From contig NZ_JAIGNU010000002.1 of NCBI RefSeq assembly GCF_019711655.1, positions 62,001 to 126,000 on the forward strand: DNA of 64,000 nt. The letters run 5' to 3'. The notes beneath the pieces were generated by a model. It searched no databases. It worked only from the letters and a program-made list of their open reading frames with translations, and was not told the origin of the DNA. The position numbers and the translations under genes are program-made. Each line of letters opens with the position of its first letter. The first letter of the stretch is position 1. This document shows, piece by piece, positions 3,459-33,595 of the stretch. This DNA comes from Qipengyuania mesophila. Its GTDB lineage: Bacteria; Pseudomonadota; Alphaproteobacteria; Sphingomonadales; Sphingomonadaceae.

Positions 3459-3782
3459 CTATGTTCGCGCCGCCTGCCCCGCGCCGACCGGTCCGTGGAA
3501 CCCGGCCATCGCCGCCAGGGGCACTTCCTCGAAGCGGCCCAGCCAGCGCCGGGCCATTTTCGCCAGCGGCACCGGGTTGAGATAGTGCCGCTTGCAGCGT
3601 CCGTCGCGCTCCGAGGCGACCAGCTCGGCCGCCTCGAGCACGGCGAGGTGCTTGGCCACCGCCTGCCGCGTCATCGGCAGGTCCTCGGCAAGGTCGGACA
3701 GCGTCAGCCCGCCCTCCTCGCTCAGCCGGTCGAGCAGCAGCCGGCGGGTGGGATCGGAAAGCGCCACGAAAGTGTCGGTCAT
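3459..3782 (-). CDS. ArsR/SdpR-family transcriptional regulator
   Basis: 107 aa winged-helix repressor: FVALSDPTRRLLLDRLSEEGGLTL and the recognition region MTRQAVAKHLAVLEAAELV are typical of ArsR-like proteins. No CxC metal-binding pair is visible, so it probably senses something other than arsenic-type thiophilic metals. It converges on the VOC gene (17 bp between stops) and has no obvious downstream target in the same direction within the next gap. The C-terminal tail PVGAGQAART looks unstructured. Confidence 0.85.
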   Translation of the reverse strand: MTDTFVALSDPTRRLLLDRLSEEGGLTLSDLAEDLPMTRQAVAKHLAVLEAAELVASERDGRCKRHYLNPVPLAKMARRWLGRFEEVPLAAMAGFHGPVGAGQAART

Positions 3783-28588: not shown

Positions 28589-29503
28589 TTAGCGCGGATT
28601 GGACCAGCGCGCGAAGATCGCGGTGGGCAGCAGCCGGCCCGCCCGCTCACCCTGAGGCTGTCGGAGGGCGTCTTCTTCCACCGCCAGATCGCCGTGTTCG
28701 ATCGTGCCGGGAAGCCCTGCGAAAACCTCTTCGAGCAGTCCGCCCAGTGCGAGGCTGCTCATCCGCACGGCATAGACGGTGAGGAAGAGGAAGCGGCTGT
28801 TGTCGTCGAGCAGCTGGCGGCAATCCGAAACGAGACCGGGCAGCCCTTCTTCGAGCCGCCAGACCTCGCCATCGGGACCGCGCCCGAATTTGGGCGGATC
28901 GAGAATGATCCCGTCGTAGCGACGCCCGCGGCGCACTTCGCGCGCGGTGTATTTCATCGCATCCTCGACCAACCAGCGGATCGGGCGGTCGTCCAGCCCG
29001 GCGAGCGTCGCATTGGCGCGCGCCTGCGCGACCGATTTCTTGCTCGCATCGACATGGGTCACGCGGCCGAAACGGCTGAGCGCCTGCGTGCCGACGCCGG
29101 TGTAGCCGAACAGGTTCATCGTCTCGGCGTCGGTGGCATCGGCCAGCTGCGCACCCATCCACTCCCACACCGGCGCCATGTCGGGGAAGAAGCCCAGGTG
29201 GCGGAAGGGCGTGCATTGCGCGGTGAAGCGTGCTTCCGCGCCCCAGCCGAGCTCCCAGCCATCGTCGGGCACGCTCTTCGCATACTGCCAGCGCCCGCCG
29301 CCGTCCTCGTCGCTGCCGGGAACGAACTCGCCATGCGCGTCCCAGCTCTCGAGCCGCGGCGACCACATCGCCTGCGGCTCGGGACGGATGAAGCGGTAGG
29401 GGCCATAGGCCTCGAACTTGCGGCCATGCCCGCTGTCGAGCAGGCGATAGGCATCCCAGCCCTCGCCGACCATCAGCACGGGTTCGCGAACCAGCTCGGC
29501 CAT
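28589..29503 (-). CDS. Class I SAM-dependent rRNA-type methyltransferase (RlmI-like)
   Basis: 304 aa. Motif I is NLFGYTGVGT (130-139), motif II is VDASKKSV, and motif IV is DPPKFG (202-207), the combination of RlmI/RlmL-type 23S rRNA cytosine or guanine methyltransferases. The N-terminal PUA domain of RlmI is absent, replaced by an unfamiliar region (residues 1-90) with a GHGRKFEAYGPYRFIRPEPQAMW stretch. The methylated base is therefore not known. Its ATG overlaps the thrC stop. Confidence 0.82.
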   Translation of the reverse strand: MAELVREPVLMVGEGWDAYRLLDSGHGRKFEAYGPYRFIRPEPQAMWSPRLESWDAHGEFVPGSDEDGGGRWQYAKSVPDDGWELGWGAEARFTAQCTPFRHLGFFPDMAPVWEWMGAQLADATDAETMNLFGYTGVGTQALSRFGRVTHVDASKKSVAQARANATLAGLDDRPIRWLVEDAMKYTAREVRRGRRYDGIILDPPKFGRGPDGEVWRLEEGLPGLVSDCRQLLDDNSRFLFLTVYAVRMSSLALGGLLEEVFAGLPGTIEHGDLAVEEDALRQPQGERAGRLLPTAIFARWSNPR

Positions 29504-30894
29504 CAGGAGGCATGCCCCAGGATATGCTCGCGCACCGCCTCGTAGGTGCCGGGCAGCTCGGTATAGGCTTCCTCGCGCGCGAACAGGTCGCCGACCCGCG
29601 CGGGCAGCGTCGGCCGCATTCCGGTGGCGCGTTCGACCGCATCGGGGAACTTGGCCGGATGCGCGGTCGCCAGCGTAACCACCGGGACATCGGTGGGCAG
29701 TTCGGCCTGCAGCGCAGCATGAAGCCCGATCGCGGTATGCGGGTCGATCGTCTCGCAGCAGGATTCATAGGCCCAGCGGATCGCCTGCGCGGTTTCGGCC
29801 TCGTCGGCGCGCGCGCTGGTGAAGAGTGCCGCGGCGCCCTCGCGCTGGGCATTGGTCAGCTGCATAGCCCGGCTCGCCTCGAAGCCGCGCATCTGCTCGG
29901 CCAGCGCCGCGCCGTCGCGCCCGCCGACATCGAACAGCAGCCGCTCGAAGTTCGAGCTAACTTGAATATCCATGCTCGGCGCGGCGGTGGGGGTGACGGT
30001 GCCGGTCGAATAATCTCCGCTCGACAGCGCGCGGTGGAGGATGTCGTTGATATTTGTGGCGACCAGCAGCTGCTCGATCGGCAGCCCCATTCGCGCGGCG
30101 ACATGGCCCGCGAAGACATCGCCGAAATTGCCCGTCGGCACACTGAAGGCCAGCTTGCGCTCGGGCCCGCCGAGTTGCAGCGAGGCGGCGAAATAATAGA
30201 CCACCTGCGCCATCAACCGCGCCCAGTTGATCGAGTTGACCGCGCCGATGCGATGCTTGGCGGTCACGCTCTCGTCGGCGAAGATCCGCTTCACCATCGC
30301 CTGCGCATCGTCGAAGCTGCCGTCGATCGCGATATTGTGGACGTTGGGCGCGCGCACCGTGGTCATCTGGCGGCGCTGGACGTCGCTCACCCGGCCCTTG
30401 GGGTGGAGCATGAAGATCTCGACCCGGTCGAGCCCCGCGACCGCATCGATCGCCGCACTGCCGGTATCGCCGCTGGTCGCCCCGACGATCGTCAACGTGC
30501 CGTCCTCGCGCGCGAGGAATTCCTCGAACAGCAGGCCGAGCAATTGCAGCGCCACATCCTTGAAGGCGAGCGTCGGCCCGTGGAACAATTCGAGCAGCCA
30601 CTGTTGTTCAGTCAATTGTACCAGCGGTGTGACCGCCTTGTGGGCGAAGCGGGCATAGGCTTTCGCGGTCAGCTCGTGCAGTTTTTCGGGCGTCAGGCAG
30701 TCGCCGACGAAGGGCTGCATGACCCGCGCGGCGAGCTCGGGATACGGGAGGCCGCGCATCGCGGTGATCTCGTCGAGCGAGAATTGCGGCCATTCTTCGG
30801 GGACATAGAGGCCGCCGTCGCTGGCCAGCCCGGCGAGCGTGACGCCGGCGAAATCGAGCGCAGGCGCGCTACCGCGGGTGGAGACGTATTTCAT
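29503..30894 (-). CDS. thrC: Threonine synthase ThrC
   Basis: 463 aa, full length for the bacterial (gamma) class. N-terminus MKYVSTRGSAPALDFAGVTLAGLASDGGLYVPE; PLP Schiff-base Lys112 in GPTLAFKDVALQLLG; SGDTGSAA phosphate-binding loop. It converts O-phosphohomoserine to threonine. Heads a tightly packed minus-strand unit thrC-methyltransferase-folB-99 aa-moaD-moaE. Upstream, the divergent ArsR/SRPBCC module separates it from the cytochrome oxidase locus. Confidence 0.95.
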   Translation of the reverse strand: MKYVSTRGSAPALDFAGVTLAGLASDGGLYVPEEWPQFSLDEITAMRGLPYPELAARVMQPFVGDCLTPEKLHELTAKAYARFAHKAVTPLVQLTEQQWLLELFHGPTLAFKDVALQLLGLLFEEFLAREDGTLTIVGATSGDTGSAAIDAVAGLDRVEIFMLHPKGRVSDVQRRQMTTVRAPNVHNIAIDGSFDDAQAMVKRIFADESVTAKHRIGAVNSINWARLMAQVVYYFAASLQLGGPERKLAFSVPTGNFGDVFAGHVAARMGLPIEQLLVATNINDILHRALSSGDYSTGTVTPTAAPSMDIQVSSNFERLLFDVGGRDGAALAEQMRGFEASRAMQLTNAQREGAAALFTSARADEAETAQAIRWAYESCCETIDPHTAIGLHAALQAELPTDVPVVTLATAHPAKFPDAVERATGMRPTLPARVGDLFAREEAYTELPGTYEAVREHILGHAS

Positions 30895-30942
30895 CGCGAC
30901 AAGCGGTTAGCGGGCGCAGTGTGAGCGGGCAAGCAAGCCGGC

Positions 30943-31296
30943 CTAGTCGGTGGATTGCTTTTCCTTGTCCTCGACCGCTTCGAGGTCCCGCTTGAGGCGC
31001 GCCAGCCCCTGCACCGCCTGCGCGGCATGGGGGCCGATCCAGCGCTCGTGAATATCGTGGATCGGCATCGCGTCAAGGTGATTGAACCGCTCACGCCCCT
31101 TGCGCACCGGGACCACCAGCCCCGCCTCCTCGAGAACCCGCAGGTGCATCATGACGGTGGTCCGGTCGAGCGTCGGAAATTCGGTGCAGAGCTGCTTGGT
31201 CGTCAACGGGCGCGGCCGGATTGCGTCGCAGATCGCTCGCCGGACCGGATTGGCCAGTGCCTTGAACACGCGGTCGAACTGCTCCTCGGTTGACAT
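30943..31296 (-). CDS. ArsR-family repressor, probably leaderless
   Basis: 117 aa winged-helix protein: EEQFDRVFKALANPVRRAICDAIRPRPLTTKQLCTEF and DRTTVMMHLRVLEEAGLVVPVRKGRERFNHLD. No clear metal-binding Cys pair (one Cys near 56). It is paired with a divergent SRPBCC gene, a very common arrangement in which ArsR represses the lipid-binding partner. Its ATG lies inside a palindrome and only about 8 nt after a TATAAA-like -10, so the message would have almost no leader. Confidence 0.87.
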   Translation of the reverse strand: MSTEEQFDRVFKALANPVRRAICDAIRPRPLTTKQLCTEFPTLDRTTVMMHLRVLEEAGLVVPVRKGRERFNHLDAMPIHDIHERWIGPHAAQAVQGLARLKRDLEAVEDKEKQSTD

Positions 31297-31318
31297 GTTA
31301 GTTTTTTATAACATACAC
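31290..31318. promoter_or_regulatory. Divergent ArsR operator-promoter
   Basis: ATGTTA-N8-TAACAT (31295-31314) is a perfect palindrome in a run of A/T. On the plus strand TTGACA (31290-31295) is a consensus -35 with a -10 candidate ATACAC/TACACA at 31313-31319 for the SRPBCC gene. On the minus strand TATAAA lies just before the arsR ATG. One bound dimer would cover both promoters. Confidence 0.75.
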
Positions 31319-31343
31319 AATCGCGCGGCAAGAGGAGTCGGCC

Positions 31344-31796
31344 ATGGAACTCAGATATCGCGTCTTCGCCCATATCTCCAAGCCTCCGCACGAGGTGTTC
31401 GAGGCGGTCGCCGACCCGGACAAGCTGTCACGCTATTTCACCACCGGCGGGGCCGAGGGACGGATTGAGCCGGGCGCCACGGTCATGTGGGACTTCCACG
31501 ATTTCCCCGGCGCCTTCCCGGTCCAGGTGATCGAGGTCGTGCCCGACGAACGCATCGTGCTCGAATGGGAGGGCGAGCCCGATGCGGGCTACAATGTCAC
31601 GGTGACGATGACCTTCAAGCCGGTCGATGGGGATGCCGGGCGAACGCTGGTGGAGATCGCGGAGGAAGGCTGGCGCGAAACCGAGAGCGGGCTCAAGGGC
31701 AGCTACAACAATTGCATGGGCTGGAGCCAGATGCTCGCCGCGCTCAAGGCCTGGGTCGAATACGGCATCAATCTGCGCGAGGGGATGTACAAATAG
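31344..31796 (+). CDS. SRPBCC/AHSA1-like protein
   Basis: 150 aa START-like hydrophobic-ligand-binding fold: YRVFAHISKPPHEVFEAVADPDKLSRYF at the N-terminus, RIEPGATVMWDFHDFPGAFPVQVIEVVPDERIVLEWE in the middle, and a long C-terminal helix NNCMGWSQMLAALKAWVEYG. Activator-of-Hsp90-like subfamily; ligand unknown. ATG 31344 follows AGAGGAG. Regulated with the divergent ArsR. Ends 1 bp from the convergent SURF1 stop. Confidence 0.87.
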   Translation: MELRYRVFAHISKPPHEVFEAVADPDKLSRYFTTGGAEGRIEPGATVMWDFHDFPGAFPVQVIEVVPDERIVLEWEGEPDAGYNVTVTMTFKPVDGDAGRTLVEIAEEGWRETESGLKGSYNNCMGWSQMLAALKAWVEYGINLREGMYK

Positions 31797-31797
31797 G

Positions 31798-32373
31798 CTA
31801 GGCGCGGCTCCGGCGGCGCAGCGCGCGGATGTAGATCACCAGCGCGGTCAGGGCGAAGAAGAACCACTGGCCGGCATAGGCAAGGTGGTTGTTGGGGATC
31901 GAGCGGGGGTCCGGGCGTGCGCTTGCCTCAAGACCGGGAGCCGGTTCGTCCGCTACTACTCGCGCTCCGTCAGGGCCATCAGGCGCGATTATGCCCGCTA
32001 CCCGATCAAGCTCGTATGGGACAGTGGCCGGGTTCTGTGACCAACCGATGTTTACCAAAACCGGTGTATGGTCGACATCCTCCGTGCAGCGGGCCCAATG
32101 CGCCCAGCCTACCCGGCCCTCCTTATTTGCGCCAGCGCGCGGCTCGGTTACGCCGCTACCCGTGCAGGTGAGCGTCGTATGGCGGAAATAGAATTGCGGT
32201 CGCTCAAGCGATTTTCCCATGAGCGGAGCATCTTCCGTCATCATCTCCGCCTGCGCATATCGTGCCAGCAGCGCTTCCTTTTCATCCTTGCGACCCAGCT
32301 GCCAGATGCCGAGCGCGATCATCGTGGCGACCGCGCCGGCGACGAAGACGGTGGGTATCAGCGGAAGGCGCAT
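31798..32373 (-). CDS. SURF1 family cytochrome oxidase biogenesis protein
   Basis: 191 aa, slightly short for SURF1. N-terminal membrane segment LIPTVFVAGAVATMIALGIWQLGRKDEK contains the conserved LG-x-WQL-x-R-x-x-K; the periplasmic domain has VLVNIGW; the second span is near the C-terminus (NHLAYAGQWFFFALTALVIYI), where the NNHLAYAGQWF motif is typical. SURF1 helps insert heme a into subunit I. Its ATG overlaps the DUF983 stop. Last gene of the oxidase operon. Confidence 0.92.
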   Translation of the reverse strand: MRLPLIPTVFVAGAVATMIALGIWQLGRKDEKEALLARYAQAEMMTEDAPLMGKSLERPQFYFRHTTLTCTGSGVTEPRAGANKEGRVGWAHWARCTEDVDHTPVLVNIGWSQNPATVPYELDRVAGIIAPDGPDGARVVADEPAPGLEASARPDPRSIPNNHLAYAGQWFFFALTALVIYIRALRRRSRA

Positions 32374-32774
32374 CACAGATCCTTGCTGCCCGCTTCGCGG
32401 GCGTCGTTGCGGTATTCGCTGGCGAGCAGCCACGCCTTGGTCACGCGCAGGCCGCCGATGACCAGCGCGAAGGTCAGCGGCACCCACAGCAGGGCGTGCA
32501 CCCACCATGGCGGCTCGAACGACAATTGCACCCAGATCGCCAGCCCCACGGTGATCGTGCCCACTGCAAGCGTCACCAGTGCGGCGGGGCCATCGCCGAC
32601 GTTGAAGCGCGCATAGTCCAGCCCGCAGGCGGGGCAGCGCTCGGAAAAGGCGAGCATGCCGCCGAACATCGTCTTGGCCCGGCAGCGGGGGCACAAACCG
32701 AGAAGGGCAGCCTCGGCCAGAGAAGTCTCGGTGCCGGGCTGCCCTTCGCGTGTTTCGGGATTGTCCGAAGACAT
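32373..32774 (-). CDS. DUF983 family membrane protein
   Basis: 133 aa. LAEAALLGLCPRCRAKTMFGGMLAFSERCPACGLDYARF carries two CxxC motifs (CPRC and CPAC), a zinc-ribbon-like N-terminus, followed by two membrane spans (ALVTLAVGTITVGLAIWVQL and WVHALLWVPLTFALVIGGLRV). DUF983 proteins are regularly placed between oxidase subunit III and SURF1 in alphaproteobacteria, implying a role in oxidase biogenesis that is not defined. Its start overlaps the ctaE stop and its stop overlaps the SURF1 start. Confidence 0.88.
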   Translation of the reverse strand: MSSDNPETREGQPGTETSLAEAALLGLCPRCRAKTMFGGMLAFSERCPACGLDYARFNVGDGPAALVTLAVGTITVGLAIWVQLSFEPPWWVHALLWVPLTFALVIGGLRVTKAWLLASEYRNDAREAGSKDL

Positions 32775-33595
32775 CAGTGGATGGCAGCGCCCCACCCGCC
32801 CCAGACATAGACGGTGACGAAGAGGAACAGCCACACCACGTCGACGAAGTGCCAGTACCACGCGGCCGCTTCGAAGCCGAAGTGCTGACGCGGGGTGAAG
32901 TGGCCCTTGTAAGCGCGCACCAGACAGACGATCAGAAAGATCGTGCCGACCAGCACGTGGAAGCCGTGGAAGCCGGTCGCCATGTAGAATGCCGAACTGT
33001 AAGTGTTGCCACCGAAGCCGAACGGCGCATGCGCGTATTCATAGGCCTGAATGGCGGTGAACAGCGCGCCGAGCACGATGGTCAGCCACAGGCCCTTCTT
33101 GAGGCCTTCGCGGTCGCCGTGGATCAGGCTGTGGTGCGCCCAGGTCACCGTGGTGCCCGAGCACAGCAGGATCAGCGTGTTGAGCAGCGGCAGGCTGAAC
33201 GGATCCATGACCGCTTCGATCGCCTTGGGCGGGAACACGCCGCCGACGACGTCGGACAGCTGGCTGGGGAACAGCGCGAAGTCGAAGAAACTCCAGAACC
33301 AGCCGACGAAGAACATCACTTCCGAAGCGATGAACAGGATCATGCCGTAGCGCATGTGGAGCTGCACCACCGGGGTGTGATCGCCGCGCTGCGCTTCCTT
33401 CACGATGTTCGAGAACCAGCTGAAGAAGGTCGCGATGAGGCCTGCGATGCCGAGGCCGAGCACGAGATGCGCGCTGGCCATCTCGTGCATGAACAGGACC
33501 ATGCCGCTGGTGAAGGTCAGCGCCGAAATCGAACCGATCAGCGGCCAGATATCGGGTTCGAGGATGTGATATTCGTGATTGACGTTGCCAGCCAT
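32774..33595 (-). CDS. ctaE: Cytochrome c oxidase subunit III
   Basis: 273 aa, seven hydrophobic segments. Family markers: HEYHILEPDIWPLIGSI, YGMILFIASEVMFFVGWFWSFF, the conserved acidic EVMFF, LLNTLILLCSGTTVTWAHHSLI, and FYMATGFHGFHVLVGTIFLIV, ending with WYWHFVDVVWLFLFVTVYVWG. Part of the aa3-type oxidase in the inner membrane. Located 66 bp after ctaG and overlapping DUF983. Confidence 0.96.
   Translation of the reverse strand: MAGNVNHEYHILEPDIWPLIGSISALTFTSGMVLFMHEMASAHLVLGLGIAGLIATFFSWFSNIVKEAQRGDHTPVVQLHMRYGMILFIASEVMFFVGWFWSFFDFALFPSQLSDVVGGVFPPKAIEAVMDPFSLPLLNTLILLCSGTTVTWAHHSLIHGDREGLKKGLWLTIVLGALFTAIQAYEYAHAPFGFGGNTYSSAFYMATGFHGFHVLVGTIFLIVCLVRAYKGHFTPRQHFGFEAAAWYWHFVDVVWLFLFVTVYVWGGWGAAIH

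Follow-up and report, generated by a model that had tools for sequence, protein, structure and literature searches.

The window analysed here is a 64,000-nucleotide stretch of a Qipengyuania mesophila contig, and it contains a pair of small, divergently oriented genes separated by an intergenic gap of 47 bp. On the minus strand lies arsR (30943–31296), which encodes a regulator of 117 amino acids of the HTH_20/HTH_5 type beginning with Met-Ser (ATG TCA); this ATG is the earliest start possible downstream of an in-frame stop. The protein belongs to the ArsR family according to its Pfam matches to HTH_20 (E 6.3e-14; 52.1 bits, cut-off 27) and HTH_5 (E 4e-6; 27 bits, cut-off 22). The plus-strand gene (31344–31796) encodes an SRPBCC/AHSA1-type protein of 150 amino acids, matching AHSA1 over residues 14–139 (E 2.3e-15; 57.4 bits, cut-off 22.1) and Polyketide_cyc2 (E 2.3e-7). 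Members of the AHA1 family share the Bet v 1 fold, for which a role as scaffold of large hydrophobic ligands has been described (PMC2577659). Elsewhere in the window, the minus strand encodes another, weaker relative of ArsR at 3522–3776 (E 3e-16 to the ArsR profile).

Regulators of the metal-sensing ArsR/SmtB branch carry a conserved CxC motif in alpha-3 or a DxH/HxxE-type motif in alpha-5. Looking for metal-ligand cysteines, we found no invariant cysteine column in 14 aligned or 25 listed ArsR sequences; the alpha-5-type motif was assessed by eye only. The NCBIfam profile HTH_metalloreg scored 48.6 bits, under its cut-off of 55. Because ArsR has no conserved cysteines and stays below the metalloregulator cut-off, metal sensing was rejected and a non-metal signal is likely. 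A single-sequence structure prediction of ArsR yielded a poor model (mean pLDDT 54, pTM 0.44), which was not used for conclusions.

The sequence-only reading of this DNA had placed an inverted repeat, ATGTTA-N8-TAACAT, over the arsR start codon, and this was borne out: a palindrome of 20 bp, ATGTTAGTTTTTTATAACAT in the window, with the consensus form ATGTTATA-N4-TATAACAT among relatives, extends over both strands from 31295 to 31314 and lies mostly within the gap. It is the predicted ArsR operator. The A and T of the arsR ATG (CAT at 31294–31296) are inside the palindrome, the G just outside. The gap had also been described as AT-rich and sharply unlike its surroundings, which agrees with a GC content of 0.45–0.48 in two 60-base segments across it, compared with mostly 0.60–0.77 in the rest of 30500–32200, where some other 60-base segments also drop to about 0.53. 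When up to two mismatches are allowed, the whole window contains a single occurrence versus 0.10 expected in shuffled sequence, with at least one match in 9 of 100 shuffles. Within the 3.13-Mb genome it is unique (n = 1), and reversed-pattern controls gave 0 matches.

Promoter-like boxes flank and overlap this palindrome. The arsR start codon at 31294–31296 is probably also the +1 of a leaderless mRNA, judging from promoter geometry and from a register identical in all 71 copies aligned below. On the minus strand, the predicted arsR −10 box TAAAAA lies at 31303–31308 (−12 to −7), its T−12 and A−11 being present in 71/71 copies, and the predicted −35 box TTGCCG at 31326–31331 (−35 to −30), with a spacer of 17 and a TTG conserved at −35 to −33. 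The TATAAA that had been noted 8 nt before the arsR ATG is indeed found there (31305–31310, minus strand; −14 to −9) and is an alternative −10 box that would shift the start about 2 nt earlier. The consensus TTGACA claimed for the SRPBCC gene is likewise found on the plus strand at 31290–31295, antisense to arsR codons 1–3; this predicted −35 box reads TTGACA in 68/71 copies. After a spacer of 16 follows the predicted SRPBCC −10 box CATACA (31312–31317), which is weak in the Qipengyuania genome (3/6 consensus matches) and reads CATAAT in 31/71 copies. The Shine-Dalgarno motif of the SRPBCC gene, GAGGAG, is located at 31332–31337 on the plus strand. A generic promoter scan of 30800–31900 returned no sigma-70 site.

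Taken from the Qipengyuania genome alone, the case is modest: the arms have only six bases, the SRPBCC −10 box is poor, the promoter scan has no match, and shuffled sequence gives the matches mentioned above. In favour of a palindrome that arose by chance within the AT-rich gap, a 6-bp inverted repeat is short, and TATAAA and TTGACA are each common alone. Conservation of the layout in relatives bears on this explanation.

Strong orthologues of the SRPBCC protein were identified in 46 genomes, 26 from the family, 5 new ones from the class and 15 new ones from the phylum. In 44 of them a divergent arsR starts inside the palindrome, in the same register. With AHSA1 treated as the Pfam counterpart of COG3832, the adjacency of ArsR and COG3832 thus holds in 44/46 orthologous genomes, with the two genes diverging rather than forming a same-strand operon. 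The family search covered 149 genomes and gave 30 matches, 26 of them strong (E 7.3e-57 or better), the others being a fragment (L028, E 4e-9) and weak matches (L029–L031, E 2e-4 to 7e-4). A divergent arsR beginning in the palindrome, register unchanged, accompanies 25 of these 26, including L003, whose arsR start was shifted 12 nt upstream after inspection; L005, L008, L009, L024 and L027 deviate at one or two bases of the arms. The SRPBCC gene of L025 stands alone, with no arsR and no operator in the 3.5 kb fetched.

Searches with an SRPBCC profile extended this set by five strong genomes among 289 of the class (L062–L066; layout in 5/5) and by fifteen among 398 of the phylum (L161–L175; layout in 14), and all 21 matches of the phylum search fall in the window's own genome, its family or its class. 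L161 (genome G1096) has kept the operator (at about 1452) and the SRPBCC gene, and a tblastn search of its 3.5 kb of fetched sequence detected no ArsR. In a genome of the same genus (G279, locus L160), ATA replaces the arsR ATG while the palindrome arms are intact; this arsR may use a rare start codon or be impaired. Two weaker matches are of another kind: no ArsR was found adjoining the SRPBCC gene of L067, and L176 is a co-directional pair with a different palindrome.

The reverse approach, starting from the operator, led to the same genes. The DNA pattern GACATGTTA-N8-TAACA occurs in 33 of 396 genomes of the order, at one site each and with a reversed control of 0; all 33 belong to the window's family, and the pair is present at 30/30 of the loci fetched. 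A stricter form, CATGTTAT-N5-TATAACAT, which leaves out the window copy with its G at position 5, matched 7 of 385 class genomes (control 0), six of them at an ArsR-SRPBCC pair. The seventh, L145 (G572; GC 0.38), was rejected as a pair, since nothing in its 3 kb matched ArsR or SRPBCC with an E-value below 0.05; it reads like a hairpin. With a centre of N7 instead of N6, a search of 84,980 species genomes gave 36 matches scattered over many phyla and no named sphingomonad, so that the neighbouring, one-base-longer spacing is not visibly associated with sphingomonads. Judged from these matches, the palindrome is specific to the arsR-SRPBCC pair. A search for it near other such pairs had been proposed together with the original reading as a check, and its outcome was strongly positive. 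The conservation in 44/46 genomes and the 0 control matches of the operator-first searches refute a chance palindrome, which we consider practically negligible as an explanation.

For a closer view of the intergenic region, we aligned 71 copies (25 + 19 + 5 + 7 copies, plus L150 and L162–L175; rows L025, L028, L137, L160 and L161 were omitted), with the A of the arsR ATG taken as position 0 and numbers rising upstream. These copies are related sequences and hence not independent. Positions −4 to 3, 11, 12 and 14–16 are invariant (n = 71). Pairwise identity is 87% in the operator columns, which are partly preset because 19 of the 71 rows were gathered with an operator-fixing pattern, and drops to 34%, i.e., near random, in columns 22–32. 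The outer seven arm pairs are complementary in 93–100% of the copies and the eighth in 61%, while the window copy has six perfect arm pairs; by this comparison its six-base arms are a slightly decayed local version of longer arms. The arm columns hardly vary and therefore offer no compensatory changes that would prove the palindrome to be read as a unit.

Beyond the near-random columns, conservation returns at C33 A34 A35 G36, which corresponds to CTTG on the arsR strand. A TTG at −35 to −33 of arsR, not preset by the way the rows were gathered, is present in 60/71 copies and, allowing one base either way, in 70/71; it is accompanied by TA at −12/−11 in 71/71. The last base of the −10 hexamer departs strongly from the consensus (TAAAAA in 31/71). 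In none of the 71 copies do the 22 nt ahead of the arsR ATG contain a Shine-Dalgarno-like motif. Boxes placed at −35 and −10 of the ATG, with hexamers short of the full consensus, and the lack of a Shine-Dalgarno motif form the promoter geometry expected of a leaderless mRNA. Together with the fixed register, this comparison favours the leaderless arsR put forward in the sequence-only reading.

The possibility has to be weighed that the operator and the shared control are real and arsR is not leaderless, being transcribed from further upstream or translated from the GTG at codon 10 (31267–31269) behind a GAGGAG motif. In the Qipengyuania genome this GAGGAG indeed lies 12 nt ahead of the GTG, and the silence of the generic promoter scan also fits such a reading. 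Against it stand the Met-Ser start in each of 56 translated copies and in all 14 of L162–L175, as well as the TTG at −35, the TA at −12/−11 and the absence of Shine-Dalgarno-like motifs described above. Codon 10, a valine codon in the window, specifies isoleucine in several relatives (L005, L011, L014), and the GTG start was rejected because it is not conserved. We consider an arsR with a leader unlikely and favour the leaderless start.

On the other side of the gap, the predicted SRPBCC −10 box has at least 4/6 matches to TATAAT in 57/71 copies, located 16 bp from TTGACA. The latter leaves a trace in the coding sequence of the regulator: since TTGACA is antisense to arsR codons 1–3, the codon of Ser2 is fixed as TCA, found in 54/56 copies, versus 23 of 459 other serine codons of the same genes. 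The register-locked palindrome and the overlap of this box with arsR codons favour the proposal, likewise made from the window alone, that a single operator would serve both genes.

The conserved CAAG (31329–31332 in the window) could alternatively belong to the ribosome-binding region of the SRPBCC gene instead of forming the arsR −35 box, in which case the arsR promoter would not be identified; this would be compatible with the operator. CAAG often abuts a Shine-Dalgarno motif (CAAGGAG in several relatives), and in most copies not only its distance to the arsR ATG but also that to the SRPBCC start (14–21 nt) is similar. The distances taken over all copies argue against this assignment. CAA is fixed at 33 from the arsR ATG in 60/71 copies and at 32–34 in 70/71. 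By contrast, the SRPBCC start, when placed by homology (68/71 coincide with ATG or GTG), lies anywhere between 13 and 48 nt from CAAG. Thirteen copies have the SRPBCC start at least 56 nt from the arsR ATG; in 12 of them CAAG stays at 33 and the TTG at −35 of arsR is thereby kept, the exception being L064. We therefore judge a purely ribosome-binding role of CAAG rather unlikely and keep to its assignment as part of the arsR −35 region.

In 16 of 25 family loci the pair lies between thrC and surf1-cox3, as in the window (29503–33595). From 31 genomes of the same genus, 12 surf1 loci were fetched; the pair is present in 3 of these loci, and thrC adjoins surf1 in 9. Members of the genus that have the pair include G856 and G279. 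A recent insertion at the thrC/surf1-cox3 locus is not needed to explain the 16/25 family and 3/12 genus loci, and the distribution fits an old presence with repeated loss.

The pair is also found on plasmids. A tblastn search yielded 53 plasmid records, and of eight that were fetched, seven have the same layout: Paracoccus denitrificans PD1222 (L134; PDEN_RS22520/RS22525), P. alcaliphilus, Roseibium aggregatum, Sulfitobacter sp. D7, Tritonibacter mobilis, Sinorhizobium meliloti and Shinella sp., with arsR read from the sequence in the Tritonibacter and Shinella plasmids, which were without usable annotation. VOC-family genes lie beside or near the pair on the Paracoccus, Roseibium and Sulfitobacter plasmids (L134, L136, L139), which hints at a role in detoxifying small molecules.

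The class also contains ArsR proteins that are more distantly related (L111–L133), of which 15 (L111–L125) were inspected. An AHSA1 gene follows downstream on the same strand in eight (L111, L112, L117, L118 and L120–L123), directly except in L120, where about 450 nt intervene. On our reading, ten (L111, L112, L114, L116–L120, L124, L125) have an ATG 3–8 nt past a −10-like box and a palindrome between the boxes. In L121 there is clearly a leader, which carries a Shine-Dalgarno motif; another four of the 15 lack the close spacing from −10 box to ATG. The letters of the palindrome seem to change with the recognition helix of the ArsR protein, as read by eye and without statistics: RQAV goes with TGCAAC..GTTGCA, RFGV with a GTGAC-type site, and R[CT]TV, the type of the window, with ATGTTATA..TATAACAT; RIAV/RIGV helices occur as well. 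In L114, L115, L117, L119 and L122 an automatic palindrome finder chose other repeats. The co-directional ArsR-SRPBCC operons of the class resemble the window in having a related ArsR by an AHSA1 gene and, in many cases, a TTGACA-palindrome-TATAAT arrangement with an arsR that is leaderless by sequence. They differ in their palindromes (TGCAAC..GTTGCA and others), in an operator that lies between the boxes and off the start codon, and in their single direction of transcription.

Leaderless, autoregulated repressor genes are familiar from lambda cI, transcribed from PRM, and from tetR of Tn1721, which, unlike the window pair, belong to unrelated families and involve several operators. CrtR of Corynebacterium glutamicum is a parallel in that the repressor gene diverges from its target, is reported to be leaderless and has its operator in the shared gap, but it is a MarR family protein, the gap is 200 bp and the operator is off the start codon (PMC5401885). 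Leaderless genes are normal in S. meliloti, which belongs to the same class and has 171 mapped start sites of this kind (PMC3616915). The nearest case with a footprint that we found is Rv2034 of Mycobacterium tuberculosis, an autorepressing ArsR by a Polyketide_cyc2-type gene, Rv2035, for which a 20-bp 8-4-8 palindrome, CCGTAAGT-N4-ACTTACGG, was footprinted with protection from −30 to +3 in that paper's numbering (PMC3338718). The length of the palindrome is that of the window operator, whereas its letters are others and the two mycobacterial genes overlap in one operon; the main text of the paper does not use the word leaderless (PMC3338718).

Pairs of this composition have been described before. 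In a 2009 survey, ArsR-COG3832 modules were proposed as toxin-antitoxin-like, with 280 occurrences counted from the ArsR side (Makarova et al. 2009, PMC2701414, Table 2). Like the window pair, they combine an ArsR-type HTH protein without a metal-binding motif with an adjoining AHSA1/COG3832 gene and are patchily distributed; they are predicted operons, whereas the window pair is divergent with one shared operator over the arsR start codon (PMC2701414). A toxin-antitoxin module with ArsR as antitoxin and the SRPBCC protein as toxin would be in line with that proposal and with the two small genes, their patchy distribution and their presence on plasmids. The authors of the survey themselves lean to a resistance role (PMC2701414), and a COG3832-ArsR pair of Stenotrophomonas proved non-toxic both in E. 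coli and in the host it comes from (PMC7650669). In our set, moreover, SRPBCC genes occur with no arsR found alongside (L025, L161) or with an altered arsR start (L160). We regard a toxin-antitoxin function as very unlikely.

The gene pair, the palindrome, its register, the promoter-like boxes, the lack of a Shine-Dalgarno motif and the specificity of the palindrome for the pair, all read from the sequences, very probably reflect a two-gene autoregulated switch, in which an ArsR dimer on one 20-bp operator would shut both the leaderless arsR promoter and the divergent SRPBCC promoter. From them we infer the steps of the following model: binding of the operator, transcription of arsR without a leader, shutdown of the two genes, their induction and a ligand. 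An ArsR-type repressor without conserved metal-binding cysteines would bind the palindrome as a dimer. On the arsR strand, this palindrome would take in the −10 region and the two initial bases of the leaderless mRNA; on the SRPBCC strand, it would occupy the interval that separates the −35 box from the −10 box. Because it overlaps the arsR −10 box and start as well as the SRPBCC −35/−10 interval, one bound dimer could block RNA polymerase at both promoters; by analogy with Rv2034, a single dimer on 31295–31314 would exclude the polymerase from both. A signal, probably a hydrophobic ligand or a reactive compound handled by the SRPBCC protein, would then free the repressor and switch both genes on.

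An even more compact arrangement was found on plasmid 23 of the actinomycete Tsukamurella tyrosinosolvens (L137). There the gap (about 2464–2492) contains an imperfect palindrome, GACATGTTGTAGTTTTATCACATGTC, and according to the annotated starts the arsR ATG lies in one arm and the SRPBCC ATG in the other, 16 nt apart; the inner arm bases are not all paired, and it is a single case. Both L137 genes would be leaderless on this reading. It is conceivable, though we hold this tentatively and as somewhat doubtful, that leaderlessness of the repressor is a defining, selected trait of the whole ArsR-SRPBCC clan, with operators built into minimal promoters such that one footprint covers promoter, +1 and start codon. 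L137 would then be its most compact form, one dimer covering two leaderless divergent starts.

The components of the system are known from the ArsR-COG3832 pairs described earlier (PMC2701414); for the divergent, leaderless version with a single operator we found no description in the open-licence literature searched. ArsR-COG3832 pairs are widespread; they still figure among the putative toxin-antitoxin systems, and few functional tests of them have been made (PMC7650669). The divergent variant compresses an operator, two promoters and a start codon into about 45 bp, where the −35 box of the SRPBCC gene fixes the second codon of arsR. It offers a precise regulatory model that is testable in Paracoccus denitrificans PD1222 and Sinorhizobium meliloti, and a specific operator by which further members can be found.
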